Origin: Phycisphaerae bacterium
Lineage (GTDB): Bacteria > Planctomycetota > Phycisphaerae > UBA1845 > PWPN01
DNA: 64,000 nt
NCBI GenBank assembly: GCA_018003015.1
Contig: JAGNEZ010000022.1
Coordinates: 1-64,000, forward strand
Direction: 5' to 3'
In this document: positions 11,678 through 54,311 of the stretch, one piece after another
How positions within the stretch are numbered: position 1 is the first letter of the stretch
Layout of the letters: every line of letters begins with the position of its first letter
Program-made: the position numbers and the translations under genes
The notes under the pieces: model-generated
What the model was told of the DNA's origin: nothing
The model's input: only the letters and a program-made list of their open reading frames with translations
Database searches by the model: none

Positions 11678-11693
11678 TGGTGGCCCCAGCGGG

Positions 11694-13472: not shown

Positions 13473-13479
13473 GGGGGGC

Positions 13480-13509
13480 ATGATACCCGTGGGTATTCGG
13501 CAGCGTCCA
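13480..13509 (-). promoter_or_regulatory. Promoter of the antiporter gene, predicted leaderless
   Basis: On the minus strand TGGACG (13509-13504) and TATCAT (13485-13480) are 18 bp apart. The -10 ends 7 nt before the ATG at 13472, and there is no Shine-Dalgarno sequence. The -35 matches only 4 of 6 positions. Confidence 0.4.
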
Positions 13510-13566
13510 GTTCGCGGACACGATCTGAGGAGGAGACGGAGGCGAGATGGCAGCGGAGTGGCGGGT

Positions 13567-15482: not shown

Positions 15483-15595
15483 GATCACCCTCGGTGGCGC
15501 GGAGACGCGCCCTCGCTCTGTCCGGGCGCGGAAGACCGCTCCTCCTGCGCCGGGCAATTGACCATTGGGGCCCTCACAGCGGAACCAGGGTCATG

Positions 15596-32807: not shown

Positions 32808-35189
32808 TTATAGGAAGGGCAAGCCGATGAAGAAACTGAACCAGCGGGTGTCGTCCTCGTCGCTCTTGGCGACCGGGAACGCGACGTCGAACTCCATCGG
32901 GACGGTGCCGAAGATCTCCAGGGTCAGCCGGATGCCCGCACCGACCGAAGCCCGCCAGGAAGACACGCCGAAGTGCTCCTCGACCGTTCCCATATCCGAG
33001 AAGAACACGCCGCGCACGACCTTGGAGTAAAGGGGGAAGGAGTATTCCGCGCCGGTCAAGGTCATGAAATCGCCGCCGACCCGGTTGTTGCGGAGCCCGT
33101 CGCGGGGGCTGATGCCGCGGAAGTCGAAACCGCGGAACGATCCGATGCCGCCGGCGTAGAACCGCTCGAACACCGGTGCGTCGCCGACGATCTGTCCGGC
33201 TCGGGTGTAGGCGCTGACCACGCTCTTGCGGTCCTGATCGTCGACCGCGACGGTCCAGTACTGGGTGTATCCCGCCGTGGCCTTACCGAAGAAGTAGTCG
33301 CCGCCAAGGGCCCCCGCCTGCTCGTAACCGACGTTAAAGCGGTGCCCGGCTGAAGGATCGAAGCGGCTGTTGGTCGTGTCATGGAGCAGGGACAGCTTGG
33401 CGCTGGTGAGCATGCTGTCGCCTTCGACGTCCTGGATATCCTTGGCGGCGAAGGACTCGACGCTGCTGATGTTGATGTATTCGCTGCGCAGGGCGATTTC
33501 GCCGACCCAGTCCTTGAGCAGGCCCTGCTCGAAGGTCTTATCGAAGCTCACCATGCCGCCGATCCGCAGTTCGTCGTATCCATCGCGGCCGCGTTCGAAC
33601 AGATAGACGCTGGTCCCGAAGCCGATCCGCTTGTCGAAGAGGTAGGGTTCGCGGAAGTCGATGCGGAAGCGGGTCAACTCGGTGCCCGGCTCGAGCTGAA
33701 TACGGAAGGTCTGCCCGGCTCCGCGATACGCACGGCCCTTGATGAACTCCTCGAAGCTGCGCGGCGTGTCGAACAGATCGAAGTTGGTGTTTTCGAGGAC
33801 GATGTTGCCCACGACGCCGCTGTCGCTACTGGCTCCGATGCCGGCGAGGAACTGGTTGGTTTTGGGGTTCTCTTTGACCGTCACGACGGCGTCGCGTACG
33901 CCTTCCTTCTTGTCCTGGGGCTCGATCGGCTCGATTGTGGCATCGCTGAACAGGCCGGTTTCCTTGAGCTTTCGCTGGGCCTTCTCCGTCTTGGTGGTGT
34001 CGTACAGCTCATCGGGATAGAAGCGAAGCTCGCGCCGGACGCATTTCTCCTGGGTGTGGGAGTTGCCGTTGACTTCGATCCAGCCGATGTGGAACTGCTC
34101 GCCCTCCTGCAGGTTCATGGTCAGGATCACCTGGCCGGGCTCGTCGGCGAAGACCCAGCTCGGCGCGACCACGCAGTAGATGTAGCCCTGGGCGCCATAG
34201 TGAGTTTGGATCTTCTTGACGTCCGCCTTGACCAGGCTGTCGACCAGGAATTCACCGACCTTGATCCGCATCAGGTCCATGATTTCCTCGGCCGTGAGGA
34301 CTTCGTTGCCCCGGATCCGAATCTCCTTGATGGCGTAGTGGGCGCCTTCGCTGACCCGGAAGACCACCTCGAGTCTCTCGCGAGCCACGTCGGTGTACTG
34401 CTCGACGTAGCTGACCTCGGCGTCGAGGAAACCCCGGTCGCGGTAGTACTGCTGGACCTTGGCGGCGTCGCGGGTTGCCCGTTCCGCATCGAAGTCGCCG
34501 GTAACGAAAATCGGAAGGTACGCCTTGGTCTCGATTTCGTGCTTGAGTTCGCGGGCTCCGTAGGCCGTATTGCCCTCAAACCGGACCGCGCGGACCCGCA
34601 CCCGCTGATTCTCGACAATGGTGTAGACGACCCGTCGCTCGGTCTTGAGCCGTTCCTCGTCGAATGTGACTTCGACGTAGGAGTAGCCCTTCTCCTTGTA
34701 TAGCCGCTCGATGGCGTCCCGGCCCTGGCGGACATCGTACAAATCGAGCGGGTCGCCGGCGTTGAAGCTCAAGGCGGCGATCAGGTCCTTGGTCTTGAAC
34801 TTCTTCGCCCCGACGAACTCGACTGAGGCAACCTCCGGCTTCTCGGTGACCTTGATCACCAGCTTGACCTGATCGTTAACCAGTTGGGTATCGGCCTGCA
34901 CATCGAGGAAGCGTCCGGTCTTGAGGAGCCGGCTGACGTCACGCTGGGTCTGGTCCTGCGAATAGGCCTGCCCGACCTTGACGCGGATCTGGTTGCGGAC
35001 GTAGGCCTCGTCGAGATTGATCAGGCCGACGATGGTGAGTTCGCCGATGAGCTTGCCGTCCAACGGTGACGACGACGCCGCGGGGGCGGGAGCCGCTGTC
35101 GGCGGGGCCTGCTGGGCCGAGACGCCCGCCCAAGCGACAAGGACAAACGACGCCGTCAACAGCCATTTCAGAAGTGTGATCCGCACCAT
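32808..35189 (-). CDS. bamA: Outer membrane protein assembly factor BamA
   Basis: The 793-residue protein has a signal peptide ending near VSA-QQ, five POTRA repeats (about residues 45-425) and a C-terminal Omp85 barrel. POTRA beta strands are seen at IGELTIVGLINL, VASVEFVGAKKF, VRAVRFEGNTAY, IKEIRIRGNEVL and IGWIEVNGNSHT. The barrel has the Omp85 hallmark FRGFDFRG near residue 680. BamA folds barrel proteins into the outer membrane, so its presence argues for a diderm envelope. The frame stays open upstream to 36653, but the signal peptide and promoter fix the start at 35189. Confidence 0.93.
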   Translation of the reverse strand: MVRITLLKWLLTASFVLVAWAGVSAQQAPPTAAPAPAASSSPLDGKLIGELTIVGLINLDEAYVRNQIRVKVGQAYSQDQTQRDVSRLLKTGRFLDVQADTQLVNDQVKLVIKVTEKPEVASVEFVGAKKFKTKDLIAALSFNAGDPLDLYDVRQGRDAIERLYKEKGYSYVEVTFDEERLKTERRVVYTIVENQRVRVRAVRFEGNTAYGARELKHEIETKAYLPIFVTGDFDAERATRDAAKVQQYYRDRGFLDAEVSYVEQYTDVARERLEVVFRVSEGAHYAIKEIRIRGNEVLTAEEIMDLMRIKVGEFLVDSLVKADVKKIQTHYGAQGYIYCVVAPSWVFADEPGQVILTMNLQEGEQFHIGWIEVNGNSHTQEKCVRRELRFYPDELYDTTKTEKAQRKLKETGLFSDATIEPIEPQDKKEGVRDAVVTVKENPKTNQFLAGIGASSDSGVVGNIVLENTNFDLFDTPRSFEEFIKGRAYRGAGQTFRIQLEPGTELTRFRIDFREPYLFDKRIGFGTSVYLFERGRDGYDELRIGGMVSFDKTFEQGLLKDWVGEIALRSEYINISSVESFAAKDIQDVEGDSMLTSAKLSLLHDTTNSRFDPSAGHRFNVGYEQAGALGGDYFFGKATAGYTQYWTVAVDDQDRKSVVSAYTRAGQIVGDAPVFERFYAGGIGSFRGFDFRGISPRDGLRNNRVGGDFMTLTGAEYSFPLYSKVVRGVFFSDMGTVEEHFGVSSWRASVGAGIRLTLEIFGTVPMEFDVAFPVAKSDEDDTRWFSFFIGLPFL

Positions 35190-35197
35190 GTCGGAGC

Positions 35198-35225
35198 ATG
35201 ATACGCCCCTTCGCCACCCTGTCAA
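35198..35225 (-). promoter_or_regulatory. Promoter of bamA, predicted leaderless
   Basis: On the minus strand TTGACA (35225-35220), 16 bp, TATCAT (35203-35198), then 8 nt to the ATG at 35189. Both hexamers are near consensus. No Shine-Dalgarno sequence is present before the ATG. Confidence 0.62.
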
Positions 35226-35345
35226 AACCGACTGTTGAAATCTGAGCTCGGGGCTGTGAGTTGTTTGAGGCACCTGCGTGCCGTGGTGGAGATGCCGGCC
35301 AATCGATCCTTGCTTTCCGAGCCGGTTTGCGGCAATGTGAGGTCC

Positions 35346-37241
35346 ATGTGTGGAATCGCCGGGATCATCGACTTTCGCGGACGGGCGGTGGACCGTCAGG
35401 TTCTGGACCACATGGAGACGGCCCTTTCGCACCGAGGACCGGATGACCACGGCCAATGGATCCACGAGTCCCCTGGATTCTCTGTCGGTCTGGCCCACAC
35501 GCGTTTGGCGGTGATCGATCCGACCCCGGAAGGCCATCAGCCGATGGTGTCGCCGGACGGCCGCTGGGCGATCTGCTACAACGGAGAGCTGTACAACTTT
35601 CGAGAACTGCGCGAGCAGCTTTCCGGTCTTTTCCATACCACGTGCGATACCGAGGTTGCCCTGCGAGCCTGCATCACCTGGGGACCCGACGCTCTCCAGC
35701 GGTTTGATGCGATGTGGGCCATGGCGGTTGTCGACGTGGGCGAACGCCGGGGACATCTGTCGCGCGATCCATTCGGGATCAAGCCGCTGTACTATACCGT
35801 TCATGACGGGCAGCTGGTCTTCGCCAGCGAGTTGCGGGCCTTGCGCTGCCATCCCGGGCTGCCCGGCGAGATCGATCGGGAGGCCCTGATCGAGTACCTC
35901 AATCTGGGCTTCGTGCCCCATCCACGGACGCTGTACCGGGGCATCCACAGGCTTTCGCCCGGCCACCGGCTGTCTTTCACCGCCACCGGGGTCGGCAAGC
36001 CGGAGCGGTTCTACGCCTTGCCCATTCCCCCGAAGCGTCCGCTGCCCTATTCGGAGGCTTGTGAACGGATCCGGGTGACGATCGAGAACGCCGTCGATCA
36101 ACAGTGCGTATCGGATGTGCCTCTGGGCGCTTTTCTCTCCGGCGGACTGGACTCGGCGGTGGTGGTGGCGGCGATGACTCGGGTTGGGCACCGGCCGGTG
36201 CGGACCTTCAGTATCGGCTACCCCGACCATCCGCGTTATGACGAAACCGAGCATGCCCGGCTGGTGGCCGCCCATTTCGGGGCCGAGCACCACGAGTTCC
36301 CGGTGACATTCGGCGACGTTCTGGCGGCCGTCGAACCGATGCTCGACCACCTCGGGGAGCCATTCGCGGACAGCTCGCTTCTTCCGACCTCTCTGGTGAG
36401 TCGCTACGCCCGCGAGCACGTGACTGTTGCCCTGAGCGGTGACGGCGGAGACGAGCTTTTCGGCGGGTATTGGCGATACCTCGGACACCACTACCTGGAT
36501 CGGTACCGCCGCTGGCCGTCGCTGGTTCGCAAGGGTTTCATCGAACCTCTGCTGCGGCTGGCTCCGTCGGCGAGGACCACGCGCCGGCTGGACCGGCTGC
36601 GACAGGTTCGCAAGCTCGTCCGAGGGGACCGTGAGGATCCCATGGCCCGGCACATCGCCTGGGCACGATTCACCACCGATGCGGTGGCCGCGAGGCTATT
36701 CGGGCGCGACCGAGCCCGAGCCGGTTTCGACGACCTGGTCAAGCGGTACCGGGAAGAGGCCGCCGCTCTGCGTCCGGAGCCTATGCTTCTGCCGGGCCTG
36801 GAGGAAATCCTCCTGGCCGATCTGGCTGTAGGCCTGCCGGGGGACATGCTTCACAAGGTCGACACCGCGAGCATGTTCCACAGCCTTGAGGTTCGCGTGC
36901 CGCTCCTGGCGGCGGACGTGGTCCAGTATGCCACCTCTCTGCCCGTCGAGTATCGGATCCGAGGCACGACCACGAAGCAGATCCTGCGGGACGCCTTCAA
37001 GGACCTCCTGCCGGCCTCGGTCCTGATCCGCCGGAAGATGGGCTTTGAGGTGCCGGTGGGCGAGTTTCTGCGTAACGAACTCCGGACCCTGTTCAAGGAC
37101 ACCGTGACGCCTGCTGCCCTAGGGCGATACGGCCTTGACGCCCCCACCGCCGCCCGGTTGTACGAAGACCACGCCAGCCGGCGCGCGGATCACACGGAGT
37201 TGCTATGGGCGCTGCTGGTGCTGTGCTGGCGTCGGGGTTGA
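35346..37241 (+). CDS. asnB: Asparagine synthetase, glutamine-hydrolysing
   Basis: The 631-residue protein begins MCGIAGIIDF, so Cys2 becomes the N-terminal nucleophile of the class II glutaminase domain (to about 210). ALSHRGPDDHG and ICYNGELYNF are typical of that domain. The synthetase domain has the PP-loop GAFLSGGLDSAVV near residue 260 and VALSGDGGDELFGGY near 360. The enzyme makes asparagine from aspartate, glutamine and ATP, or amidates a related substrate as many asnB paralogues in envelope loci do. The frame is open to 35235, but only the ATG at 35346 exposes the catalytic Cys. It diverges from bamA. Confidence 0.92.
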   Translation: MCGIAGIIDFRGRAVDRQVLDHMETALSHRGPDDHGQWIHESPGFSVGLAHTRLAVIDPTPEGHQPMVSPDGRWAICYNGELYNFRELREQLSGLFHTTCDTEVALRACITWGPDALQRFDAMWAMAVVDVGERRGHLSRDPFGIKPLYYTVHDGQLVFASELRALRCHPGLPGEIDREALIEYLNLGFVPHPRTLYRGIHRLSPGHRLSFTATGVGKPERFYALPIPPKRPLPYSEACERIRVTIENAVDQQCVSDVPLGAFLSGGLDSAVVVAAMTRVGHRPVRTFSIGYPDHPRYDETEHARLVAAHFGAEHHEFPVTFGDVLAAVEPMLDHLGEPFADSSLLPTSLVSRYAREHVTVALSGDGGDELFGGYWRYLGHHYLDRYRRWPSLVRKGFIEPLLRLAPSARTTRRLDRLRQVRKLVRGDREDPMARHIAWARFTTDAVAARLFGRDRARAGFDDLVKRYREEAAALRPEPMLLPGLEEILLADLAVGLPGDMLHKVDTASMFHSLEVRVPLLAADVVQYATSLPVEYRIRGTTTKQILRDAFKDLLPASVLIRRKMGFEVPVGEFLRNELRTLFKDTVTPAALGRYGLDAPTAARLYEDHASRRADHTELLWALLVLCWRRG

Positions 37242-37525: not shown

Positions 37526-40500
37526 ATGCGTCTGGATGTCCAAGGTCGATGGTGCCGTGGCCGGATGACGGCGGTGACAGGGTTGTTGTTCACGTCGATG
37601 AGCCTGACGGCCTGCCCTGTGGGGGCAGCTCCCGCAACGCAGCCCGTTCCACCGGATGACCGCCCGGCGGGGGCGACTCCCGAGAGGCCGATCCGGGAGC
37701 AGAGCATCTACATCCCCTACACGAAGCTGCGTGAGACCTTCGAGCGAGAGGGTCGAGGCGTCTTCCTGCCCTACGGCGAGTTCGAGAAGCTGTGGCGAGC
37801 GGCCCGGGAGAAGGATGGCCCATCGCCGGACGCGCGACCGCCGGTTCAGTTCCTGATCAACGAGGTCGACCACGAGGCTACGGTCGCCAGGGACGTGGTG
37901 CGGGTCAAAGCCCAGGTCAAGATCGAGCTCCTGGCCGAGGGATGGCACCATGTCCCGCTGGGTCTGGCGGACGCAGCGGCCACCCAGGCGACGATCGGCG
38001 AGCTGCCCGCCCGGATGCTGTTTGATTCCCAGAAGGGCTATGAGCTGCTTCTCGAGAAGCGGGGCAAGGCGGCGGAGTCGGTCACTCTCACTCTTGAATA
38101 CGCCAAGGCTTACGAGAAGACTGCCGGCCGCAACCGCGTATCGTTCCAGCCTCCGCAGGCCCCGGTGAGCCGTTGGCGGATCAGGATTCCGGAGAGTGGT
38201 GTGAAGGTCAACCTCTCGCCGCTCATTGCGGCCACGCAGATTCCCGAGAGTGGCCCGGCCGGTTCCGCGGCTGAAGAGACGGTGGTCATGGCTTTCGTGG
38301 GGGCTGCCCCGACGGTGCAGATCGACTGGACTCCCAAGGCCGAGGGAGCCACCGGTCTGGCGAGCCTGGCCACCGTTCAGGCCGAGCAGCAAGTGCGGAT
38401 CGAGGATGGCGTGGTCCGCACGCGCACCCAGTTGGCGTACGAGATCAGCCGGGCGGCCCTGTCGGAGTTGGTTGTGGAGGTGCCGGCCGATCAGCGGGTC
38501 ATCAACGTTCTGGACGCCAATGTGCGGCAGTGGTCGGTCGTGGGACCAACCTCGACCGCCCCTTCACCCGCCGGTCCGGCAGCGACTTCCGCTCCGGCGG
38601 CGGAGGGGACCCGTCAGCAGATCGCGATTCAGCTCTTTGAGCCCGCTCGGGCCACGCAGAACATCGTGATCGAACTCGAGAAGTTCGTCAGCGAGAGCAC
38701 GCAACGCAGACTGCGGGTACCGGTGGTGGCGGCCATCGGTGTCGGGCGACAACAGGGCGTGGTGGTGGTGGCCGCGGCCGAAGGCCTGCGTACCGAGGTG
38801 GTTGCTCACACCGGCCTGCTGCAGATGGATGCCGTCGAACTGCCCAAATCGCTGGCGAACTGGAAATGGCTGCTGTCGTATCGCTACGCCTCGCTGCCGT
38901 TTGACTTGACGCTCCAGGTTGAGAAGGTCCAGCCTCGTATCGTGCTGGATTCTCTGGTCGAGGCCACGCTGGAACCCGAGCAACTGACCCTCGACGTCCT
39001 GGCGGTTTACACTGTTGAGCGGGCCGGGGTTTTCCGGCTCGAGTTTGACGTTCCGGCGGGATTCGAGGTCCGCAAGGTGGCGGGGCGAGCGATTGCCGAC
39101 GCTCAGCCGGCGCAGGTGGATACCCACTACGCGGACGGCTCTGAGAAGACCCACCTGGTGGTCAATCTGGCGAGCAAGGCGCTGGGCCGTGTGGCTCTGG
39201 TGGTCAGGCTGCAACGTCGTCTCACGGAACCGGACCTGCTCAGCCCGACGGGCCGCAGCGTCAGCCTGCCAATGATCATTCCTCGAGCGTCCAAGAACAC
39301 GGTCGAGCGGGCCGCCGGGCGGCTGGTCATCTACGCGGCGGAGAGCCTCCGGGTGAACCCAGGGCAGACGAAAGGTCTCCGCAGCGTCTCATTCAACGAG
39401 GCATTCGAGGGCCTGGCCTCGTCGAAGGAGCAGCCCTCACCGGCGATCCGGCCCGTGTTGGCGTTCGCTTACGCCCAGGAAGACGTGGACCTCACCCTGG
39501 CCGCCGAGCGGCGTAAGCCGCAGGTCACCGCTCGGCAGCTTTTGCTCGCCCAGATCGAGGCCGGAGTGATCAAATACTCGGCCACCTTCACCTATGAGAT
39601 CCTGTACAGCGGCGTCTCGAGTGTGCGGATCGACCTGCCTGCGGATCTGGCGGCGGACATTCGCAACAGTACGCCGGGCATTCGGGAGAAGGTGATTGAT
39701 CCGCCGCCCAAGGATCTGGCGGCGAGCGATGTGGCCTGGAGCTTCGCGGGCGAAACGGAGCTGACCGGCACCGTTCAGGTACGTCTGAACTGGGAGAAGC
39801 GAATTGAGGAGCTGCCGGTGGGCAAGGCCATCGAAATGTCCCTGCCGCATCTCAAGCCTCGGCTGGTGGATCGGGCATGGGGACAAATCGTCTGGACGAA
39901 GGTCGAGACCTTGGACGTGCACGAATCCGGCGAGCCGAAGGGGGTCCGACCGATCGACCCGCAGCATGATCTGATGCCCGGCGCTTCGGTGGCCGGCGCG
40001 GCACGGGCCTTCGAGTTCCACGACAACTGGGATCTGCGGGTCGCGGTGACCCGCTACAAGCTGGAGGAGGTGAAGCGAACCAGTATCGAGCGCGCGGTGC
40101 TGCAGATGGTCGCCACGCGGGACAACTCGCTCTCGGTTCGGGCTCTGTACAGGCTACGGAGTGCCGGGCAAAGGCTGGCGGTGAAGCTGCCCGACAGCGT
40201 CGAGTTCGACAACGAACCGTTGCGCATCAATGGACGGCCGGCGGCCTTAGAGCGTGGAGAGCAGGGCGAGTACTTTGTGCCGCTGGTGGGGCTCAACGCC
40301 GACACGCCGACGCTGCTGGAACTGCGTTACTCGGTCCCGCGGGGTGGTCGGCGTTTCGTGCCACCGGTGTTCCCGTCGGATCCGGCGATCCAGAAGGTGT
40401 ATGTGTGTGCCTACCTGCCGGAGGAACTCACCTACCTCGGTTCGCGCGGGCCGTGGACCGACGAGATTGACTGGGTCCTGGCCTCATCGTTGCGTCTCAA

Positions 40501-41065
40501 GCCTTCCCCTCGCCGAAGCGACCAGAGCCTTCTGGGATGGGTTGGCGAGGACCTCAATGTGCCCTCCGGACCGGGCGATACGTTCCAGACTGATGGCCGC
40601 CTGTACGTGTTCTCGACCCTGCGTCCGACCGCGACCGGTGACGCCGCGTTGCGGATCACGGCCATGAGCGAGAACTGGCTCAGCGCGATGGTGTTCGCTG
40701 TCATTGTCGCGGTCGGCCTGGCTCTGGGGCGATCTTCCGCGGCAAGGCGATGTTTGGTCGGGGGGGTGTTCCTCGTTCTGCTCATCCTCTCGGGGATCTT
40801 CCTTCCCACGTTCCTGAGGCAGATCCTCGGCACCACGCTGATCGCCGCGGTGGCGATCGTTCTCATTGGGTGGGGACTCCATTATCTGGTCTGGATCCGG
40901 CCGCACGATCCCGTAGTCATGGCTCGCAAGCAGGCTCGCCAGGAAGCACAACTCGCCCGGGTGCGGACGGCCGCCGCCCCATCGCCCCATCCGGCAGTAG
41001 CGGCCGCGCCGCCCGCTCCGGAGACTCCGAAGGACGAACCGAAAGGAGGAGAGCCCCATGCGTAG
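37526..41065 (+). CDS. Large secreted membrane-anchored envelope protein, module A
   Basis: The 1179-residue protein has a signal peptide (cleaved near GAA-PATQ). A conserved motif IYIPYTKLRETF...LPYGEFEKLW lies near residues 60-95, followed by about 900 residues of predicted beta-rich extracytoplasmic sequence. Three C-terminal membrane helices come next (NWLSAMVFAVIVAVG, CLVGGVFLVLLILSG, LGTTLIAAVAIVLIG), then an Ala/Pro-rich cytoplasmic tail of about 55 residues. I do not know the function. The same layout occurs twice more in the next gene. GAGGG lies upstream of the ATG at 37526; a start at 37496 is also possible. Its stop overlaps the next start, so they form one operon. Confidence 0.75.
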   Translation: MRLDVQGRWCRGRMTAVTGLLFTSMSLTACPVGAAPATQPVPPDDRPAGATPERPIREQSIYIPYTKLRETFEREGRGVFLPYGEFEKLWRAAREKDGPSPDARPPVQFLINEVDHEATVARDVVRVKAQVKIELLAEGWHHVPLGLADAAATQATIGELPARMLFDSQKGYELLLEKRGKAAESVTLTLEYAKAYEKTAGRNRVSFQPPQAPVSRWRIRIPESGVKVNLSPLIAATQIPESGPAGSAAEETVVMAFVGAAPTVQIDWTPKAEGATGLASLATVQAEQQVRIEDGVVRTRTQLAYEISRAALSELVVEVPADQRVINVLDANVRQWSVVGPTSTAPSPAGPAATSAPAAEGTRQQIAIQLFEPARATQNIVIELEKFVSESTQRRLRVPVVAAIGVGRQQGVVVVAAAEGLRTEVVAHTGLLQMDAVELPKSLANWKWLLSYRYASLPFDLTLQVEKVQPRIVLDSLVEATLEPEQLTLDVLAVYTVERAGVFRLEFDVPAGFEVRKVAGRAIADAQPAQVDTHYADGSEKTHLVVNLASKALGRVALVVRLQRRLTEPDLLSPTGRSVSLPMIIPRASKNTVERAAGRLVIYAAESLRVNPGQTKGLRSVSFNEAFEGLASSKEQPSPAIRPVLAFAYAQEDVDLTLAAERRKPQVTARQLLLAQIEAGVIKYSATFTYEILYSGVSSVRIDLPADLAADIRNSTPGIREKVIDPPPKDLAASDVAWSFAGETELTGTVQVRLNWEKRIEELPVGKAIEMSLPHLKPRLVDRAWGQIVWTKVETLDVHESGEPKGVRPIDPQHDLMPGASVAGAARAFEFHDNWDLRVAVTRYKLEEVKRTSIERAVLQMVATRDNSLSVRALYRLRSAGQRLAVKLPDSVEFDNEPLRINGRPAALERGEQGEYFVPLVGLNADTPTLLELRYSVPRGGRRFVPPVFPSDPAIQKVYVCAYLPEELTYLGSRGPWTDEIDWVLASSLRLKPSPRRSDQSLLGWVGEDLNVPSGPGDTFQTDGRLYVFSTLRPTATGDAALRITAMSENWLSAMVFAVIVAVGLALGRSSAARRCLVGGVFLVLLILSGIFLPTFLRQILGTTLIAAVAIVLIGWGLHYLVWIRPHDPVVMARKQARQEAQLARVRTAAAPSPHPAVAAAPPAPETPKDEPKGGEPHA

Positions 41066-44000
41066 GCAAGCCGTTCTCCTGATGGTAGCGGCGACGGGGG
41101 TAGAGTGGCTGATGGGAGCGGTCCTACAGGCCGCCGAGCCGGCCGCAGCCCCCCCTCCGGTCATCCGCGAACTGTATGTGCCCTTCGATGATCTGAACGT
41201 GCTCCTGGAAAACCAGCCACATCGTGTGCTCCTGTCGCGTCAGGAATACGAGGAATTGCTGATCAAGGCGAAGCTCAAGCCCGAGCTGGCCCCGCCGGTG
41301 CGGGCTGCGGTTCTCTCGGCCGAATACCAGGTCACGGTCGAGCAGGAACGAGCCAGGATCGTTGGGCACCTGGCCGTCGAACTGATCGATGACCACCTTC
41401 AGATGGTGGGGCTGGACCTGGCGGGAGTTGGCCTCAGGAGCGTTCGCCTGGACGGCAAGGATGCCGCGGTCGGGCGGTCGAATGACGGCCGGGTGGTCCT
41501 GTTTGTCGAGCAGAAAGGCGTGCACGACGTCGAGTTGAATCTCGTCGCCCCGCTGACCACGACGGCGGCACAGCAGGTTCTCGATTTCCGCATTCCGACG
41601 CCGGGAGCCACTCGAGTCCATCTGACCGTGCCGGGCGATGTCGAGATCAAGAGCGGGATGAAGGTCATCAGCCGGACGGTAGACGCGGCCGCAAGTCAAA
41701 CGCTTTTCGAGTTGTTGCCCGCTCATGAGAAAACCACCATTGTCATGACGCTCAACAGCCGGTTGCTCCGAAAGGAGCGCGTGGTGGTGGCCAGGAGTGT
41801 CGTGGTGGATGAGGTCACGCAGCACTATGAGCGGCTGCACGCGACCTTCTCGCTGGCCGTGCTCCACAAAGCGGTGGACAGCTTCCGGCTGGCGGTGCCC
41901 GCCGGTTTCGAGGTCACCCAGGTGCAGTCTCCCCTGCTGGCTCGGTGGAGTGTCGTCTCGGGTGAGCAGGACAGCCGTGTTCTTGACATTCGGCTGCGCG
42001 AGCAGACGAGCCAGACGGTTGTTCTGAGTGTGGCCGCGATTCGCGCCCTGCCGCCGGCCGAGGCCTGGGCTTTCCCGTCGTTCAAGGTGCTGGACGTCGC
42101 CGGCGAGGTGGCGGTGATCGGCCTGTTGCTTGAAGATGGAATGAAGGCTCACGGCATCCAGTCGGACGGGCTGATTTCCATTGACACCGGCGTACTGAAT
42201 CAGGCGTTACCGGGCTCGGTCTTCCAGGCCGAGCCGGGGGCGCCTCAGATCCGCCCGATCGTGGCCTATTATGCCCCGCAATCGAGCTTCCGACTGGGGG
42301 CCGCATTGCGCAAGCCGCCGACGCGGCTTCTGGCGACGACCAACCTGCTGCTCACGCTGGCGGAGAAGAACCAGCAGATGCGCGGCGGCTATACCCTGCT
42401 GTCGGAGACGGAGAAGCTGTTTTCCGTGGACTTCACGGTACCGGATGGCTGGCTGGTCACGGACGTCACCGGGCCAGACGGCAAGAGCCTGAACACCGAG
42501 CGGTTCCCCGGGCGGATCCACGTTCAGTTGCCCCAGGGCGTCCCGCCGCGGCAGCCTTGCCAGGTGTACTTCCAGGCCAGCAGTTCGCCCGCCGGATGGC
42601 TCACCGGCTGGGCTTCCACGACGGTGTCGTTCCCGGTATTCCGGATCGTCGGGGCGACGCGGGAGACGGGGGCCGTCGCGGTAGCCGTCCAGGACGACCT
42701 GGCGGTTCGTCCGGACAGCCTGGACCAATTGACCCCGCTGGACGAGAAGGAAAAGGAGGCATTTGGCCTAGCCGGGGCGGCGACCAGCCTGGCGTATCGG
42801 TTTGACGGGCCGTCGTACCAGGCGAGGATTGTCACGGAGCGCGTCGTTCCGCGGTTGACCGCGCAGACCTACTCGTTCTTCGTCATCGGCCCCGACGTGC
42901 TCACGGCTCACTATGAGATCGTCTACGACGTGGAGCAGGCCAGGGTGCAGCGGCTCGGGCTGATTCTCCCGGCGACCGCGCCGGAGACGCTGTCGATCCA
43001 GGGACTCGACGGGGTGGTGTTGAAGGAGTACACCGGTCGGACTCTGGAGAATGTCCGTCAATGGTCCATTCTGCTGGAGGAAGCGCGGCGGGGGACGATC
43101 CGGGTGGCCATCGACTTCCAGCAGCCGATCACCGCCCGCGAAGTCATGGATCTGGACATGCCGGTTGTCAAGGCAGAGGGCGTGGCTCATCAGGCGGGAT
43201 ACGTCTCGGTCGAGGGCAACGCCGAACTGGACGTCAAAGTCAGGTCCAAGCTGCGCAAGGTGGACATCGGTGAGCTGGTCAACGCCCGGTACCAGCCGGG
43301 CAAGCGTCTGCTCGGCGTCTACAGTTTCGTCGGCGACGCGCCGGAGCTGGCGGTGAAGATCGCCCGCCATCCGGGCCATAGCCTGCCTTCGATTCTGATC
43401 GAGCGAGCGGAACTCATCACTGTGCTGGCCGCCGAGGGGCTCAGCCAGAACGCCGCCCGGATGCTGCTGCGGGCCAAGGATCCGTACATCGAGGTTCGGC
43501 TGCCGGCCGCGGCCACGCTGTGGTCGGCCGAGCTTGACGGCGTGCCGGCCAAGCCGCAGCGCGAGGATCAGCGGCTCCTGCTCCATCTGCCTGCCGGGAG
43601 CGAAACCCAGCTGCACGACCTGCGGTTCGTGTACGAGATACCGGTTCAGGGCGTCTGGTTTCACGACGACGTGGAGGTGCAGGCCCCTGCGTTGCTGCTG
43701 CGTCGATCGGCCCAGGCGGCCGGAACACCGGTACCGGTGGCAGCGCTGACCTGGCACGTATACGTACCTTCCGGGTATCGAGTGACCGATGCGGGCGGCA
43801 CAGTGGTGACACATCAGATCGAGCCCGTGGAGCCGGCGATCAGCGTCGTCGGCCGGGCTTTGTACACACTGGCCGGAGGGATCAACCCGTTCTACTCCTC
43901 CCTGAGCCTCGCCCGAGCGCGAGAATCGGGCAGTATGAGGGCAGGGCCCGTAGCTAGATCAGAATCGGATTTCGATGCGAATGCTGACGGCATCGTCGAC

Positions 44001-47000
44001 CAACTGGACGACGATGATCAGGCTCGGCAGGTTGCCAGAGACTCAAGGATGCGTGGGCCTGCCGCCGCGGGGAGGCCTGCTCGGGGCCGGGAACCGCAGG
44101 AGGAAGGCGAGAAGCCGGCGGAGGCCGCGGCCAAGGGGGACAAACCGGAAGGCGGTCTCTCGCTCGGGACCACGATCGCACCCCCGACGGCTCCTGCAAG
44201 AGGCGAACCGACATCGAAAGGCCTGTGGGTCCTGGAGGGCGTGCGCAGTCTCAAGATCGACCTCGAAGAGAGCGGAGAGCGGTTCACGTTCCGGAATCTG
44301 GGTGCAGATCCTCGCCTCTCTCTGGCGCTCCTGGACGAACATCGATCGTCGGCCTTGGCCTGGGCCCTGGCCTGTGCCGTCGGACTGTGGGGACTGCGGC
44401 TGGCCCAGCGACCGGTTCGCAGTCGCCTCAAGTACATTCTGGCGGTGATCCTGGCCGCTTCCCTGATCTCGCTGGTCAGCGGATCATTGCTGCTGACGGA
44501 GACGCTCAACCCATCCGTCTTGGTGGCCGCAGCCCTGGTCCCCTGCTACCTGCTGATTGGGCTGGTCCGCTGGCTCACTCATCATGTCGATCTGACGCCG
44601 GCACCCAAGGCACCGGTCGCGGCGGCATCCTCTTCCGCAGCCTCTGCCGCCTTGTTCCTCGCCGTACTGGCCTTGTGGCCGCACCCGCATGCCCGGGCCC
44701 AGGAGCCGCCCAAGAGCGGTCTGCCGATGGTGGTCGAGATCACCGAGCCGCACAAGCCAGTGGACGTGCCGCCCGACGTCATCCTGCTTCCATACGATCC
44801 GGCCTCTGGAAAAGGCATGAAGGATGTGCAACACCTGCTGGTCCCCTATGAGAAGTACCTGGAGCTATGGAAGCGGGCTCATCCCGACCAGCGGATGATG
44901 ACGACCGTCCCACCGGCTGCTTACGGCCTGAGCCACGTGGCTTTGCGGGCCACGCTTCAGGGAGATGACAGCCTGTTTATCGACGGCCAGGTGGAGATCG
45001 ATGTGTACGCCGAGGGGGCGATCCACGTCCCCCTGCCGCTGGAGAACGGCGTGCTGGTCAAGGCTGATCTCGACGGCCATCCGGCCAAGCTGGGGGTGGT
45101 GAGCGTCGCCCCGCCGCCGGGCAGTCAACCGGCCGCACTGCTGGCTTCGGAACAGCCGCAAGCGGCGCAAAAGGACACCGCGGCGGCGGCCAGCGTGCGT
45201 CTTGCCGGCGGCCTGCTGGTAGTCAGCATCTCCGGCAAGGGCCGGCACCATCTGACCGTCGCTGCTCAGATGCAGCTGCACCGATCCGGAGGCTGGCGGA
45301 GTGCGGAGGGTCGCCTGCTCGCGGCGACGGCCGGAACGCTGACCCTGGTGGTCCCTGAGGCCAGCACCGAGGTTCGTTTCGCCGGCGTCGCCGACCGGCT
45401 CAGCTACCTGACCGATCAACCGCACCAGTCCATCGAGGCCGCTCTGGCCGCCGATGGCCGGCTCTCGATCCGGTGGCGCCCGAAAGTCAACGAGGGCGTC
45501 GTGGACCAGAGCCTGACCGCGCAGTCCACCGCCCTGCTCGACGTCCAAGAGGACGGGTTGCGCCTGGTCTGGCGGGTCGGACTCGAGTTCCGTCGAGGCG
45601 AGCGCAGTTCGTTTCTTGTGTCCCTGCCTTCGGACTATCTTGTAACCCAGGTGGCAGGCGGAAACGTGCGCGGCTGGGAAGTCAACTCATCCGACGGAAG
45701 TCGGCATTTAGAGGTAACGCTCCTCAAGCCGGCGAAAGATCGCGAACGGTTTGACGTCCACCTCTGGCGCCGCGGCCAAGTCGGCGGGCGGGAACTGTCC
45801 GCGTTCGAGGTTCCGGCGGTCACGGTACCGGATGCCGCCCTGCATCATGGCAGCCTGGTCATTCGCCGCAGTCCGCTGCTCGACCTTCGGACGGAGAGCA
45901 TCCACGGAGCCAGTCGGACGGACCTGCCTCCCGCGTCGGGATCGGCCGACGACCTCGCCCTGGTGGCGGAGAGCCCGCTGGGCATCCGGCCCTTCGCCGC
46001 GTATCGGTTCGTGGCCCTGCCATTCTCCATCCGGCTCAACGCCGCACCGGTACCTGGCCGGATCACGGCCAGGACGCAGGCTATTCTGCGGGTCGGCGAG
46101 CGCGAGCGAAGCCTGGAAGCCCGGGTGATCCTTGATGTTCAGGATCGGGCTCTTCATCACTTGGCGATTCTCGTTCCCGCGGACCTGGATCTGAACCAGA
46201 TCTCGGCGCCCGGCGTGTTCGAGTGGGCGGTTACGACCCAGCAGGAACACAAGCTCCTCAGCATCGACCTGACCGAGGGCCAGACCGGATCGGTGTCCGT
46301 GGTAATCGCTGGCCGGTTGGGAGAAGCTGGTCCGGCCACGCAAGTACCTCTACCACGACTGGAAGTCTGCGGCGTGCAGCAACAGGAGGGCGACCTGGTG
46401 GTGCAGACCGATCCCGCGTTCAAGGTCGACACGGTCGATCTGCAGCAGTGCGAGCCGGTCCTGCTGAATCGGGTGACGGACTGGCTGCAGCCGCAGCAGC
46501 GGGAGCTGGCCCGGGTGGCCCTGCACTATCGATCACCGGCCTACCGCGGCCAGGTCCGGCTCGTTCCGCTCATTCCGAACGTGCACTGCTACACGGTGAG
46601 CAACGCCCGGATCACCGACCGGGCGATCGAAGAGACCGTGCTGCTCGATTTCACGATCCGGCAGGCAGGCATTCGAGAGGTGTCGTTCCTGCTGCCGGAG
46701 AACATGAAAGACGCTCGTGTGCATGTTCCCCAGCTTCGACAGAAGACCATCGAGGCGGTGTCGGAGGATGCCCTCAACGGCTCGCGCGCTTCATCGCGCC
46801 CTGCAGCGAGTCAACCTCAGGGTGCGTCCCAGGAGCATCGCGGCCTGATTCGCGTGGGTTTGCAGCTCCAGGACAGGGTCATGGGCCAGTTGCGGGTGCT
46901 GGTTGAGAACGACCGCTTGCTGACCGCTCAGACCCACCGGGTACCGATTCCCCTGGTTGAGACCGGCCAGACCGATCAGCGGTACGTGCTGCTGGAGAGT

Positions 47001-48857
47001 GCCGGCCGTGACGAGGTCGTGGTTGAGGTTCAGCGGGGGCTGACGCCGCTGGATCGTCAACAGAAGGAGCGGCAGACGCTGGCGGGTATTCTCGGCACGC
47101 AGATCCCCGATGCCTATGTCGTTGACGCGGGGGCCAAGGACCCCGCCTTGGCCTTCAAGACGAAGGACCGGGCGTTGGTCGAGACGGCCGGGGCTCGCAT
47201 TGGCCTGGCCCAGGGCTGGATGAGCGTGGATGCCAGCGGGACCTATCGGGCGGTGCAGGCGTACCGCGTCGACAACAGCACCGAGCAGTTTCTGGAGATC
47301 CAGTTGCCCGCGGGAGCGGAACTCTGGACCGCGAGTGTGGCCGGCGAGCCGGCCAAGCCGACCCGATTGCCGGACCCCGCCAGGAGCGACCATCTGCTCA
47401 TCCCGCTGTTCAAGACGGCCGCCGGCGATCTCGACTACGAGGTGGTGCTCAAATACGGTGGACGGTTGTCATCGCTGGGGGGCGCAGGGGCGGTCGCCCT
47501 CCCGCTCATTCGCGCGGTCAACATCAGCGCCGAGGTGAGCCAAGTGCGGCTGTTTCTTCCGGAGCAGTACAAGTGGTTCGATTTCGGCGGCACGATGACA
47601 CAGGTTGAGGACGACGCCGAGTTGGCCGCGGGCTTCGTCTCGTACCAGACCAAGCGAGCCGAGCGACTCAATCAGGCGATGCGCGGGACGAGCGGCTTTG
47701 CCCAAGTGCGGGCCGTGGAGAATCTTAAGATTGTGCAGTCCGAGCTGGAGGGATACCAACGAAGCATGTCGTCGCTGGGCGACAATGTCCAGCTGCAGGC
47801 AGAGTGGGCATCGAATTCCCTGGCCATCGCCGGGGCGAACAAGCAGAGCGCGGAGGTTGTCCAGAAGCTCGGCCGTCTCGACGCGGCCGACAACCGCGGC
47901 ACCCTGAACCGATACTACTTCGATCAAGGCAGGATCCGATCCCATGATGTCGTTCAGGCAGGTACGGGCAACTTCGTTCTCGATTTCGAGCCGTCGGCTT
48001 CGCGACCGGCGGCGACCGATCAGGAGTTCAACGGGGCCTGGTTTGCCTCCAAGGGTCTGGCCAATCAGGCAGCGGACGTCGATGCCGGCAAGCGGTTGGG
48101 ATTCCTGCAGGGGCTTGGCAGGGAGAAAGGGCAGGCCGGGGATCTGCAGGCTCAGGCCAAGGCGCCGGCCGTTGTTCAGGGGCCACCACCACCCCAGGTG
48201 GTTGCTCAACCGTCAGCCGACGGCAAGGTTGCCAAGCCAACCGAAGACCTGCCCACCCAGGCGCGGCGTATCAAGGTGGGGCGAGAAGCGGGAAACACCG
48301 GCCAGCAGGCCCTGGGCCAGTATCAGGCCGCCCTGCAGGAGCAGACCGCCCGCCGGCGACACGGCGGGGGCGAGGACCGTCAGCATCTGGCCGAGGGAAG
48401 AGGCTTCGGAGGTTTCGGCGGAGGGTTCGGAGGTATGGGAGGTATCGGGGTCATGCCCCCAAGGCCCGCGACCACGCAGCCGAGCCTTCCGTCCGGCCTG
48501 ACCAGTCTGGATGTGGATCTTCCCCAGGTCGGCAGGCTCTACCGGTTCACTTCACCTCGCGGCGAGGCCACGATTACGGTTCGGACCTTATCACGGTCGT
48601 CGATCGCGACGCTCAAGCGGCTTGGTCTGGCACTGCTGGTCGTGGTCGTCGTAGGGTTGACCCTGAAACTCGCGACCCGCTTGGCGAACTCGCGGGTGTC
48701 GCGTTCCGCGCTCCGCCGGGTCGCGATCGTTGTAGGAGCGATCAGCGTGGTGAGTGGCGTTTTTCCCCTCGCAGGCCTTGGCTTGCTGATCCTGGGAATC
48801 GCGAGCTGGCTGGGCCGACGGAAGGAGCGTACCCCCGGGGCTCCCTTACCGACGTGA
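41058..48857 (+). CDS. Giant two-module membrane-anchored envelope protein, modules B1 and B2
   Basis: The 2599-residue protein has GGAGGAG 5 nt before the ATG and overlaps the upstream gene by 8 bases. It starts with a signal peptide (to about 28). Module B1 opens with LYVPFDDLNVLLENQ and RQEYEELL. Its beta-rich region runs to about 960, followed by a single dockerin-like loop (DANADGIVDQLD, near 973). Membrane helices at about 1095-1180 are followed by a second signal-like stretch ending in AHARAQ-type sequence near 1215. Module B2 then opens with VILLPYDPASGKG and HLLVPYEKYLELW. Late in B2 are a helical region (about 2195-2290), a Gly-rich linker (near 2450) and two C-terminal helices. The function is unknown; it looks like a fusion of two proteins of the module A type. 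Confidence 0.78.
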   Translation: MRRQAVLLMVAATGVEWLMGAVLQAAEPAAAPPPVIRELYVPFDDLNVLLENQPHRVLLSRQEYEELLIKAKLKPELAPPVRAAVLSAEYQVTVEQERARIVGHLAVELIDDHLQMVGLDLAGVGLRSVRLDGKDAAVGRSNDGRVVLFVEQKGVHDVELNLVAPLTTTAAQQVLDFRIPTPGATRVHLTVPGDVEIKSGMKVISRTVDAAASQTLFELLPAHEKTTIVMTLNSRLLRKERVVVARSVVVDEVTQHYERLHATFSLAVLHKAVDSFRLAVPAGFEVTQVQSPLLARWSVVSGEQDSRVLDIRLREQTSQTVVLSVAAIRALPPAEAWAFPSFKVLDVAGEVAVIGLLLEDGMKAHGIQSDGLISIDTGVLNQALPGSVFQAEPGAPQIRPIVAYYAPQSSFRLGAALRKPPTRLLATTNLLLTLAEKNQQMRGGYTLLSETEKLFSVDFTVPDGWLVTDVTGPDGKSLNTERFPGRIHVQLPQGVPPRQPCQVYFQASSSPAGWLTGWASTTVSFPVFRIVGATRETGAVAVAVQDDLAVRPDSLDQLTPLDEKEKEAFGLAGAATSLAYRFDGPSYQARIVTERVVPRLTAQTYSFFVIGPDVLTAHYEIVYDVEQARVQRLGLILPATAPETLSIQGLDGVVLKEYTGRTLENVRQWSILLEEARRGTIRVAIDFQQPITAREVMDLDMPVVKAEGVAHQAGYVSVEGNAELDVKVRSKLRKVDIGELVNARYQPGKRLLGVYSFVGDAPELAVKIARHPGHSLPSILIERAELITVLAAEGLSQNAARMLLRAKDPYIEVRLPAAATLWSAELDGVPAKPQREDQRLLLHLPAGSETQLHDLRFVYEIPVQGVWFHDDVEVQAPALLLRRSAQAAGTPVPVAALTWHVYVPSGYRVTDAGGTVVTHQIEPVEPAISVVGRALYTLAGGINPFYSSLSLARARESGSMRAGPVARSESDFDANADGIVDQLDDDDQARQVARDSRMRGPAAAGRPARGREPQEEGEKPAEAAAKGDKPEGGLSLGTTIAPPTAPARGEPTSKGLWVLEGVRSLKIDLEESGERFTFRNLGADPRLSLALLDEHRSSALAWALACAVGLWGLRLAQRPVRSRLKYILAVILAASLISLVSGSLLLTETLNPSVLVAAALVPCYLLIGLVRWLTHHVDLTPAPKAPVAAASSSAASAALFLAVLALWPHPHARAQEPPKSGLPMVVEITEPHKPVDVPPDVILLPYDPASGKGMKDVQHLLVPYEKYLELWKRAHPDQRMMTTVPPAAYGLSHVALRATLQGDDSLFIDGQVEIDVYAEGAIHVPLPLENGVLVKADLDGHPAKLGVVSVAPPPGSQPAALLASEQPQAAQKDTAAAASVRLAGGLLVVSISGKGRHHLTVAAQMQLHRSGGWRSAEGRLLAATAGTLTLVVPEASTEVRFAGVADRLSYLTDQPHQSIEAALAADGRLSIRWRPKVNEGVVDQSLTAQSTALLDVQEDGLRLVWRVGLEFRRGERSSFLVSLPSDYLVTQVAGGNVRGWEVNSSDGSRHLEVTLLKPAKDRERFDVHLWRRGQVGGRELSAFEVPAVTVPDAALHHGSLVIRRSPLLDLRTESIHGASRTDLPPASGSADDLALVAESPLGIRPFAAYRFVALPFSIRLNAAPVPGRITARTQAILRVGERERSLEARVILDVQDRALHHLAILVPADLDLNQISAPGVFEWAVTTQQEHKLLSIDLTEGQTGSVSVVIAGRLGEAGPATQVPLPRLEVCGVQQQEGDLVVQTDPAFKVDTVDLQQCEPVLLNRVTDWLQPQQRELARVALHYRSPAYRGQVRLVPLIPNVHCYTVSNARITDRAIEETVLLDFTIRQAGIREVSFLLPENMKDARVHVPQLRQKTIEAVSEDALNGSRASSRPAASQPQGASQEHRGLIRVGLQLQDRVMGQLRVLVENDRLLTAQTHRVPIPLVETGQTDQRYVLLESAGRDEVVVEVQRGLTPLDRQQKERQTLAGILGTQIPDAYVVDAGAKDPALAFKTKDRALVETAGARIGLAQGWMSVDASGTYRAVQAYRVDNSTEQFLEIQLPAGAELWTASVAGEPAKPTRLPDPARSDHLLIPLFKTAAGDLDYEVVLKYGGRLSSLGGAGAVALPLIRAVNISAEVSQVRLFLPEQYKWFDFGGTMTQVEDDAELAAGFVSYQTKRAERLNQAMRGTSGFAQVRAVENLKIVQSELEGYQRSMSSLGDNVQLQAEWASNSLAIAGANKQSAEVVQKLGRLDAADNRGTLNRYYFDQGRIRSHDVVQAGTGNFVLDFEPSASRPAATDQEFNGAWFASKGLANQAADVDAGKRLGFLQGLGREKGQAGDLQAQAKAPAVVQGPPPPQVVAQPSADGKVAKPTEDLPTQARRIKVGREAGNTGQQALGQYQAALQEQTARRRHGGGEDRQHLAEGRGFGGFGGGFGGMGGIGVMPPRPATTQPSLPSGLTSLDVDLPQVGRLYRFTSPRGEATITVRTLSRSSIATLKRLGLALLVVVVVGLTLKLATRLANSRVSRSALRRVAIVVGAISVVSGVFPLAGLGLLILGIASWLGRRKERTPGAPLPT

Positions 48858-48953: not shown

Positions 48954-49733
48954 TCACCACTTGAACGTCTGGGTGGAGGAGTTGTACTGCACGTTGCACT
49001 TGGCGTAGATCGACTGGGCCAGGGCGGATGGCAGGCTCGGATAGTAGTACCCCGTCAGGAACGACAGCATCAGCTTACGACCCGTGCGGTTGAACTCGGC
49101 GTGCCCGTCGCAGTAGGCAATATTGGCGCCATCGGCGCCGTGGTTGTTGTAGGCATCCGGCCAGTTGTTGATCCCGTCAGGCTTGTTGGCCGGCGGATCA
49201 TCATCCGCGTCCCCGAACAGCAGCATGCCGTAGGGCCGCTTGACGTTCTTGAGCGACTTGATCGGCTCGCGCGTCTCCCATTTCGAGGTCGTCGGGTTGT
49301 AGAAGGGTTCGGGTTTCGGCTTGAAGCCGTTGAAGTTGTAGGCGGTCCACATCCAGGTCCGCATCTCATAGCTGTGTCCGCCGGTACTGTCGTCGGCGCT
49401 GTCGGCGTTGTCCAGGAGGTCATCCGGCCGCCGAACCACGTTTGTGGTGCTCGGGCAGACCACCACGCGGAAATCGCGCAGGTACCTGGGGTAGAGGAGC
49501 CGCATGCCGTCTCCACCTCCGTTACCCTCTCTATAGATATAGATGCCGTCCCGATCCCGCTCGGCGTACATGAGCGCCGCCAGCATGATCTGATGCTCGT
49601 TGCCGGCGCACGCCATTCGGCGGGCTTGCTCTCGTGACCGATTGAGCGATGGAATGAGAATCGAGATCAGCAAAGCGATGATCGCGACCACGACCAGGAC
49701 TTCGATCAGCGTAAAACCTCGCCGGGTTTGCAT
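48954..49733 (-). CDS. Type II/IV pseudopilin-like protein
   Basis: The 259-residue protein has the short leader MQTRRG followed by [18 protein letters not shown] and then PSLNRSREQARR. The C-terminal globular part has GANIAYCDGHAEFNRTG, the DG-containing element of planctomycete pseudopilins. The start at 49733 is chosen for GGAAAGG upstream and the normal 6-residue leader; the longer frame to 49799 adds an unneeded hydrophobic piece. It converges with the giant envelope protein gene. Role unknown. Confidence 0.83.
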   Translation of the reverse strand: MQTRRGFTLIEVLVVVAIIALLISILIPSLNRSREQARRMACAGNEHQIMLAALMYAERDRDGIYIYREGNGGGDGMRLLYPRYLRDFRVVVCPSTTNVVRRPDDLLDNADSADDSTGGHSYEMRTWMWTAYNFNGFKPKPEPFYNPTTSKWETREPIKSLKNVKRPYGMLLFGDADDDPPANKPDGINNWPDAYNNHGADGANIAYCDGHAEFNRTGRKLMLSFLTGYYYPSLPSALAQSIYAKCNVQYNSSTQTFKW

Positions 49734-49950
49734 GAGAAAACCTTTCCGCGACAGCCACAGGCCCGCACCGCCTACCCACGCGAACACATCACTACGCACG
49801 ACCCCTTATCCGCGTCTTATAGATCCGCATCCGGAACTGTACCTCCATCATAAAGCAAGACTGCAGCCTCCGTCAAGCCTGAAGTTCCGGGATGAACGCT
49901 GGTGTCTTACGCTCCTCCGAACCACTGATTGAAGCCACGGCGGACGGGTG

Positions 49951-52924: not shown

Positions 52925-53037
52925 TCATCCGCCATCTCAAGCATCGTTACGGGCTGTGTTCACCGCAAGCTCTGTTTTTGTGGTTGGCGCGGCTCGGTGT
53001 GGTCAACACGTCGGCTATCAGTCTGGAGGATGAAGCA

Positions 53038-54234
53038 ATGTTCAAGGGCACATGCACCCGTCTGGCGGTCATGATCTTCGCCAGCTCCCTGGCAGTCTGC
53101 GCCGCAGCGACCGCTGCACAAATGGAGTGGGTCCACTGGCAGGTGATCGACCTCGGTTCCGCATTCAACAATACCAGCGGCTACGGCGACAATCCGCTTT
53201 CTGTCGCGTTCGACGGCGTCAACGCCTATGTCGGCGGCTACAAGAACACGGCCGGCAGTCCGGGCACGGTCGGGGTGGTCAAGGTGGAGGATGTCACCGG
53301 CGCGGCAACGCTGACACCGCTGGCGGCCACGCAATTCGCGTCGCCGACCTCCCGCGGTATCGACGCGCTGGCGTATCACGCGGGCACTGATTCGTTGTTC
53401 ATCGCCCACGACAGCGGCACCGCGGCCACCGGCTTCATCACCCGCCGCCAGGCCTCCGACGGGAGTGTGGGCGGCTCAGGCTGGACGGTAAACGGTCCAC
53501 AGAATGCTCGGCCATTCGCCATGGCCGTCGACCCCCGGGGCGACAACGGTTCAGCCGGCGTGGCCTTCCTCACCCAGGGCTCAGGTCGCAGGCGTCTGCT
53601 GTCGTTGACCGACGGGGCAACGCTCTTCGACGGCAGCAACGGAGGGATCATCAATACCTCGCCTGATTCCGGTTCGACCTGGCGGGCACTGTCTTTCGAC
53701 AGCAAGGGGAACGTAGTCGACGCCAACCAAAACGCCTACGGGTACGGCTTGCGGGTCACCGACAACCAATGGTCCACCCTGGCCGGCGCGACCAACGTCA
53801 TCACGCGAGCCGATCTCAAGACCGGTGCGGTCAACAACATCGGCCAGGGCATCGTGATCATGGAAGGCGTGGGCTCCGATCTGCTCGCTTTCTCTGGCCG
53901 CAACGTCACCAGCCTGACCGACTCCCTGGGCGGCGTCGCTGAGGTTGCAGACACCCATGTCCACATCCGCAATCTCGACGGCTCGGTCACCGGCCTGACC
54001 CAGATGGTGCTGACCGGGGCCGAGCCGATCGGCGGTGTTGCCCAAACCGCCTGGGGTGTACAAGACGCCAACGCCGACACCAAGAACCTGGCCTTCGGAC
54101 GGGACAACCGCGGGCGGCCTACACTCCTGGTGGTAGACTTTGTGACCCGACGGCTGGATGTGTACGTGCCGGAACCGGCAAGCCTGGCTATGCTGGGACT
54201 GAGCGGCCTGCTGCTCGCCAGGCGACGACGGTGA
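53038..54234 (+). CDS. Secreted PEP-CTERM protein
   Basis: The 398-residue protein has a signal peptide (cleaved near ATA-AQ) and a beta-propeller-like body with repeats such as PLSVAFDGVNAYVGGYKN. The C-terminal sorting signal is VPEPASLAMLGLSG, a helix, then a basic tail RRRR. PEP-CTERM proteins are sorted by an exosortase to the cell surface or matrix. GGAGG lies 8 nt before the ATG. Its body is homologous to that of the gene at 55202, which instead ends in a dockerin. The ligand or activity is unknown. Confidence 0.82.
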   Translation: MFKGTCTRLAVMIFASSLAVCAAATAAQMEWVHWQVIDLGSAFNNTSGYGDNPLSVAFDGVNAYVGGYKNTAGSPGTVGVVKVEDVTGAATLTPLAATQFASPTSRGIDALAYHAGTDSLFIAHDSGTAATGFITRRQASDGSVGGSGWTVNGPQNARPFAMAVDPRGDNGSAGVAFLTQGSGRRRLLSLTDGATLFDGSNGGIINTSPDSGSTWRALSFDSKGNVVDANQNAYGYGLRVTDNQWSTLAGATNVITRADLKTGAVNNIGQGIVIMEGVGSDLLAFSGRNVTSLTDSLGGVAEVADTHVHIRNLDGSVTGLTQMVLTGAEPIGGVAQTAWGVQDANADTKNLAFGRDNRGRPTLLVVDFVTRRLDVYVPEPASLAMLGLSGLLLARRRR

Positions 54235-54311
54235 CAAGGGATGTCATTCGTTCAGCGGGGCTGAGCGGAATAGGTGAATGTGAGAGCGGCATCCGCCCGG
54301 AGGATTGGCCG

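Follow-up and report, generated by a model that had tools for sequence, protein, structure and literature searches.

Two overlapping genes encode three copies of one module

The window, by which we mean the whole 64,000-nucleotide stretch of DNA that was analysed, carries two very large ORFs on the + strand: gene 1 (37526-41065; 1179 aa) and gene 2 (41058-48857; 2599 aa). A sequence-only reading of this DNA had proposed that the two overlap by 8 bases and together encode three copies of one envelope module, and the coordinates give exactly that overlap. We refer to the product of gene 1 as module A, to aa 1-1214 of gene 2 as module B, and to aa 1215-2599 as module C. All three are laid out alike: an export signal comes first, then an N-terminal PY/LW motif and a tandem array of beta domains, and membrane helices lie at the C terminus; the signal-like starts and terminal helices described earlier were thus found in each. 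All coordinates below in gene 1 and gene 2 are on the + strand.

In module A, the signal peptide is followed by a conserved motif, IYIPYxKLRxxFExxGRGVFLPYxEFxxLW (aa 59-93; 37700-37804), a first beta domain (aa 105-271; 37838-38338), four further tandem repeats of the same type of domain (domains 2-5, aa 282-985; 38369-40480), and C-terminal transmembrane helices (aa 1049-1127; 40670-40906). Module B has its beta-domain array at aa 79-914 of gene 2 (41292-43799), then a linker that is predicted to be disordered in the window protein (aa 946-1064; 43893-44249), and three C-terminal transmembrane helices (aa 1094-1178; 44337-44591). Module C is preceded by an internal signal peptide (aa 1184-1214; 44607-44699), and comprises an N-terminal motif (aa 1240-1276; 44775-44885), a beta-domain array at about aa 1280-2190 (44895-47627), assigned by profile homology since structure models were made for A and B, and C-terminal transmembrane helices at about aa 2510-2590 (48585-48827). 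The signal peptides and membrane helices place A, B and C putatively in the cell envelope, and positive-inside loops at the membrane-helix anchors of each module suggest the inner membrane.

The three modules are homologous along most of their length. HHalign comparison of deep profiles (45-63 sequences per module) gave E-values of 2.4e-89 for A and B, 1.3e-85 for A and C, and 1.9e-84 for B and C, with alignments spanning ~850-990 profile columns. Shallow profiles built from 7-8 close relatives gave 6.6e-52, 2.3e-47 and 3.6e-51, respectively, over ~860 columns, whereas the best E-value among reversed-profile controls was only 1e-4. The claim of one module in three copies is therefore upheld with high significance. 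The beta-rich region is likewise alignable and, moreover, is itself composed of tandem repeats: self-comparison of A, B and C detected repeats within each module (E-values of 4.5e-31, 4.4e-21 and 7.2e-23) at a spacing of ~170-190 residues, and five beta domains per module were counted on the models of A and B. A proposed shared motif, PYxxL...EYxxLW, survives in looser form. It occurs in all three modules (A, IYIPYTKLRETFEREGRGVFLPYGEFEKLW; B, LYVPFDDLNVLLENQPHRVLLSRQEYEELL; C, ILLPYDPAS...LLVPYEKYLELW), but it is degenerate, and B carries LL rather than LW.

A known fold is predicted for the beta domains

AlphaFold2 models of A (8-sequence alignment; mean pLDDT 65.5, with middle domains at ~80-90) and B (45 sequences; mean pLDDT 80.5, with domains mostly >85) are strings of beta-sandwiches followed by membrane helices. 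Individual domains match the N-terminal beta-sandwich of M1 aminopeptidases. With VIA, domain 1 of A superposes on LTA4H (4gaa) with Z 14.2 and an rmsd of 3.3 over 156 aligned residues, domain 1 of B matches with Z 12.8-12.9 and an rmsd of ~3.5, and domain 3 of B with Z 12.7 and an rmsd of 2.5; across these three domains, Z ranges from 12.5 to 14.2, rmsd from 2.5 to 3.9, and aligned length from 138 to 160 residues. Ribophorin I/Ost1 was the top Foldseek match for B (5.5e-11), extending across two consecutive domains, and was among the best for A (3e-9; aa 665-1048). Superposition of two domains on ribophorin I gave Z 13-16 over ~310-340 residues; the overall rmsd is large (18-22), so the hinge between domains differs, and the array has five domains where ribophorin I has two. 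The fold emerged independently from A and from B. We conclude that assignment of the beta domains to the M1-aminopeptidase-N-domain/ribophorin-I fold, without a catalytic domain, is well supported by the models.

M1 aminopeptidases such as LTA4H, PepN and ERAP1 share the N-terminal beta domain (Z 12-14, rmsd ~3.5, ~150 residues). The array differs from them in having tandem beta domains, a signal peptide and a membrane anchor, and in lacking both the catalytic and the C-terminal helical domains. A motif scan found neither HExxH nor GxMEN in the gene 1 and gene 2 proteins, on which ground we rejected an M1 peptidase identity; HExxH occurs in 2 of 106 homologues. The architecture appears, from the models, to work most like ribophorin I, which gave the best structural match for two consecutive domains: in both, tandem beta domains appear to be followed by a membrane anchor, facing the lumen in ribophorin I/Ost1 and, by prediction, the periplasm in the array. 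Ost1 has two similar beta luminal domains (PMC7226087). The array, by contrast, is bacterial, has five domains per module rather than two, comprises three paralogous modules, and has about three membrane helices per module. We do not claim membership of the ribophorin I family, because the number of domains is different, the searches gave no link in sequence, and STT3, its partner, is absent from the window's genome.

At the level of sequence, neither protein matches any Pfam or NCBIfam family at or above cut-off (a Sel_put match with E 0.016 was set aside as under cut-off). PDB sequence searches with phmmer and with profiles returned nothing credible, the profile matches lying mostly in the low-complexity linker. 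Similarity to ribophorin I was likewise not detected, as judged from the lack of a Pfam family for either protein and of a credible PDB profile match for B, although the distance may exceed the sensitivity of these searches. We found no description of the family in the literature. Hence, the earlier statement that no named family applies agrees with our searches, while the description of the module as undescribed needs dividing: the family is undescribed, with no sequence-level match, whereas its building block is known, the predicted fold being that of the M1 N-domain and ribophorin I. This is an undescribed family assembled from a building block of known fold.

The gene pair is old and patchily distributed

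Of 392 genomes sampled from the phylum, 111 have a match to a profile of module A, among them many complete genomes that belong to a single family (f39). Named loci include Pirellulales, Phycisphaerae and MAGs labelled Lentisphaerae, Kiritimatiellia and Verrucomicrobia. The window-type pair, an A gene followed by a B-C fusion (form I), is retained in >45 loci with differing surroundings; at L114 and L121, which represent two other lineages, each module has a gene of its own and the three lie side by side. In a tree of 61 modules from 20 loci, A, B and C each form their own clade (support 1.0, 1.0 and 0.986), indicating that the triplication predates the divergence of the sampled lineages. Across Planctomycetota, the three copies are ancient paralogues in a fixed A-B-C order. 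The pair has a patchy occurrence in the window's relatives (9 of 61). In sequence identity, the window's pair is about as close to copies from Pirellulales as to those from Phycisphaerae, at ~50-58% to copies from other orders. Horizontal transfer of the gene pair is possible.

When neighbourhoods were clustered, the only genes conserved beside form I were generic planctomycete ones, such as a PQQ-propeller-type gene at 9 loci. In the window, the array adjoins a gene for a large Omp85 protein (32811-36653, -; 1281 aa), which has five or more POTRA domains. Downstream lie two pseudopilin-type N_methyl/DUF1559 genes (48957-49799, -, and 54231-55178, +) and a near-cut-off PEP-CTERM protein (52978-54231). 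A type IV pilin/DUF1559-like segment also occurs in the B linker at L121 (11445-11909), L124 (6557-6841), L126 and L026 (9047-9646). Compared by blastp with pilin genes from the sampled loci, these segments gave E-values of 5e-6 to 3e-7; that of L026, which includes the start of the globular head, gave 5e-5. The window's B linker has only a remnant-like SLARARE stretch of such a segment.

Plausible translational coupling of gene 2 to gene 1

Gene 2 starts within gene 1, and an S-D-like sequence lies inside the last codons of A (AAAGGAGGAGAGCCCCATGCGTAG). The region that might couple the two genes (41042-41065) consists of this S-D-like element, AAAGGAGGAGA, in the final gene 1 codons, followed by the gene 2 ATG, with the overlap itself at 41058-41065. 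An overlap of 8 bases is present at 26 of 55 loci, one of them the distant L026; elsewhere the two genes overlap by 1, 4 or 11 bases or are separated by up to ~70 bases. Translation of gene 2 would be coupled to that of gene 1 through the S-D embedded at the end of gene 1, and such translational coupling is plausible on the sequence. The proposal that the overlap fixes stoichiometry is accordingly plausible for the window, with its overlap and S-D and with 26 of 55 loci sharing the arrangement, but it is not universal because some loci have gaps of up to ~70 bases. A stronger stoichiometric link than the overlap is that between B and C, which a single ORF encodes with a predicted signal peptide between them.

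Gene 2 as a predicted polyprotein

In the fusions, B ends in about three membrane helices, and C opens with a stretch that resembles a cleavable signal peptide. Hydrophobicity and site pattern thus predict an internal signal peptide between two membrane proteins in a single ORF. A small-x-small site follows the hydrophobic core in 45 of 45 fusions. By a stricter count, which also demands Q, E, D or A after the site, it was present at 43 of 44 junctions and at 61 of 248 ends of other helices in these proteins, a loose control (Fisher test, 1.7e-21, a value that overstates independence because the 44 fusions are related). The hydrophobic core at the junction has a median length of 16 residues, equal to that of the N-terminal signal peptides of A and B, whereas other membrane helices have a median of 18. 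The window's protein has ARA followed by Q at this site (aa 1212-1215), with a signal peptidase I cut predicted between aa 1214 and 1215; A1212 and A1214 are invariant in an alignment of the 7 closest proteins.

C needs an export signal of its own, because the chain is predicted to be cytoplasmic after the three helices of B. The stretch that follows would act as a new signal peptide and re-export C, and signal peptidase I would cut after ARA (aa 1214), releasing B and C as two proteins in a 1:1 ratio. An alternative is that gene 2 (41058-48857) is left unprocessed, so that B and C stay joined by four membrane helices in one giant two-armed envelope protein whose arm geometry is fixed by the fusion. 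The junction stretch is hydrophobic enough for a membrane helix, but its core length and its small-x-small site flanked by Q, E, D or A fit N-terminal signal peptides, unlike the other helices, and at L114 and L121 the separate C gene has its own signal peptide. We therefore regard the unprocessed form as improbable. Because the fusions retain a signal peptide with a signal peptidase I-like site, gene 2 is probably a polyprotein giving two proteins, B and C, in equimolar amounts. FbcH of Bradyrhizobium japonicum, the cytochrome b/c1 precursor, is one ORF for two membrane proteins with an internal signal peptide between them. Gene 2 resembles it in the internal signal peptide, although the proteins are unrelated and cleavage of gene 2 is predicted only.

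A sister form adjoins ECF sigma and VWA genes

A sister form (form II) is a two-module protein of ~2200 aa; at L133 it is represented by proteins of 1364 and 2305 aa. At six loci, L131 (4922-15756), L132 (4465-16759), L133 (3913-19200), L138 (2633-13303), L139 (804-13007) and L140 (3247-14261), an ECF-type sigma factor gene, a gene for a zf-HC2-type anti-sigma-like protein with vWF_A/VWA/YfbK_C domains, and the giant beta-array gene follow one another on one strand, with the array gene directly after the other two. At five of the six loci, Pfam confirmed the sigma domains; the L131 sigma factor was assigned by its clustering with the others. The VWA proteins of L131, L132 and L133 contain no array module. 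The same VWA gene lies at the contig end of L142, and at L150 a zf-HC2/VIT/VWA gene (10971-16000) of at least 1676 aa adjoins a form I gene A, from which it is divergently oriented. The three-gene unit of form II is possibly a signalling system in which a protein with a giant ectodomain partners the sigma/VWA pair, and its gene context suggests a role in envelope surveillance.

Two further variants were observed. At L132 (4465-11016), the junction between modules (about aa 1091-1115) ends in LPGC, a lipobox-like sequence that replaces the small-x-small site, and module 2 might become a lipoprotein. In a third form (L134, L135, L136, L137 and L153), two adjacent genes of ~1450-1850 and 1270-1300 aa carry the same modules.

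Discussion

We propose that genes 1 and 2 encode a three-subunit, membrane-anchored, extracytoplasmic scaffold. Overall, we give this explanation of the locus a probability of about one half; that A, B and C assemble together in the periplasm is an even bet. Extensions of this reading are more tentative. The 15-domain array may, as a non-enzymatic scaffold, bind polypeptides or envelope partners during envelope biogenesis or surveillance, with the sister form reporting to the ECF sigma/VWA anti-sigma pair, a reading that we rate as less likely than not. More speculative still is a prokaryotic relative of the ribophorin-I-type array that forms an envelope machine of three subunits and 15 domains, with two subunits released from a polyprotein by signal peptidase I, and with its sister form wired to ECF sigma/VWA.

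Other functions could be served by the same architecture. A sensor, in which the extracytoplasmic beta domains respond to a ligand or to the condition of the envelope and then cause a VWA membrane anti-sigma factor to release the ECF sigma factor, would account for the six form II loci, and the VWA genes at L142 and L150 point the same way. However, systems of YfbK/VWA and ECF sigma genes are associated with the sister form, which lies directly downstream of such a pair, whereas most form I loci, the window included, are without them. No sigma and VWA/YfbK_C genes adjoin the window's array, the neighbours of which are ordinary, and its genome has no YfbK_C match, so that the sensing link may not apply to the window's form. 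For the window we thus consider a sensor unlikely. Less likely again is a surface adhesin or structural coat made of an integrin-like string of beta domains at the cell surface: integrin alpha chains do rank high in Foldseek, but we rejected these matches as generic beta-sandwich strings (TM-scores of ~0.1, rmsd >20), and the membrane-helix anchors with positive-inside loops suggest the inner membrane.

The structural match to ribophorin I, which is the best for B and near the top for A and which covers two tandem domains, also raises the question of a bacterial counterpart acting in N-glycosylation or in co-translational presentation of substrates, as Ost1 does beside STT3. This is very improbable. 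The window's genome has no STT3 match, STT3 scores above cut-off in only 3 of the 111 array-bearing genomes as against 34 of the 281 others, there is no match at the sequence level, and a search of prokaryotes for homologues of the OST subunits other than the catalytic one is reported to have given no promising candidates (PMC4973528). Co-occurrence and the genome itself thus disfavour an OST role, and we retain the non-enzymatic scaffold as the preferred reading.

Relatives of the array occur in ~28% of sampled genomes of the phylum, and the array is unannotated, occupying 11 kb of DNA in the window; it is thus a sizeable gap in the annotation of bacteria whose envelope biology is unusual. 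Cleavage by signal peptidase, if it takes place, would make the gene 2 product a rare bacterial polyprotein, conserved in divergent lineages. Finally, tandem domains of the ribophorin I type in bacteria may bear on the puzzle of how the non-catalytic OST subunits arose.
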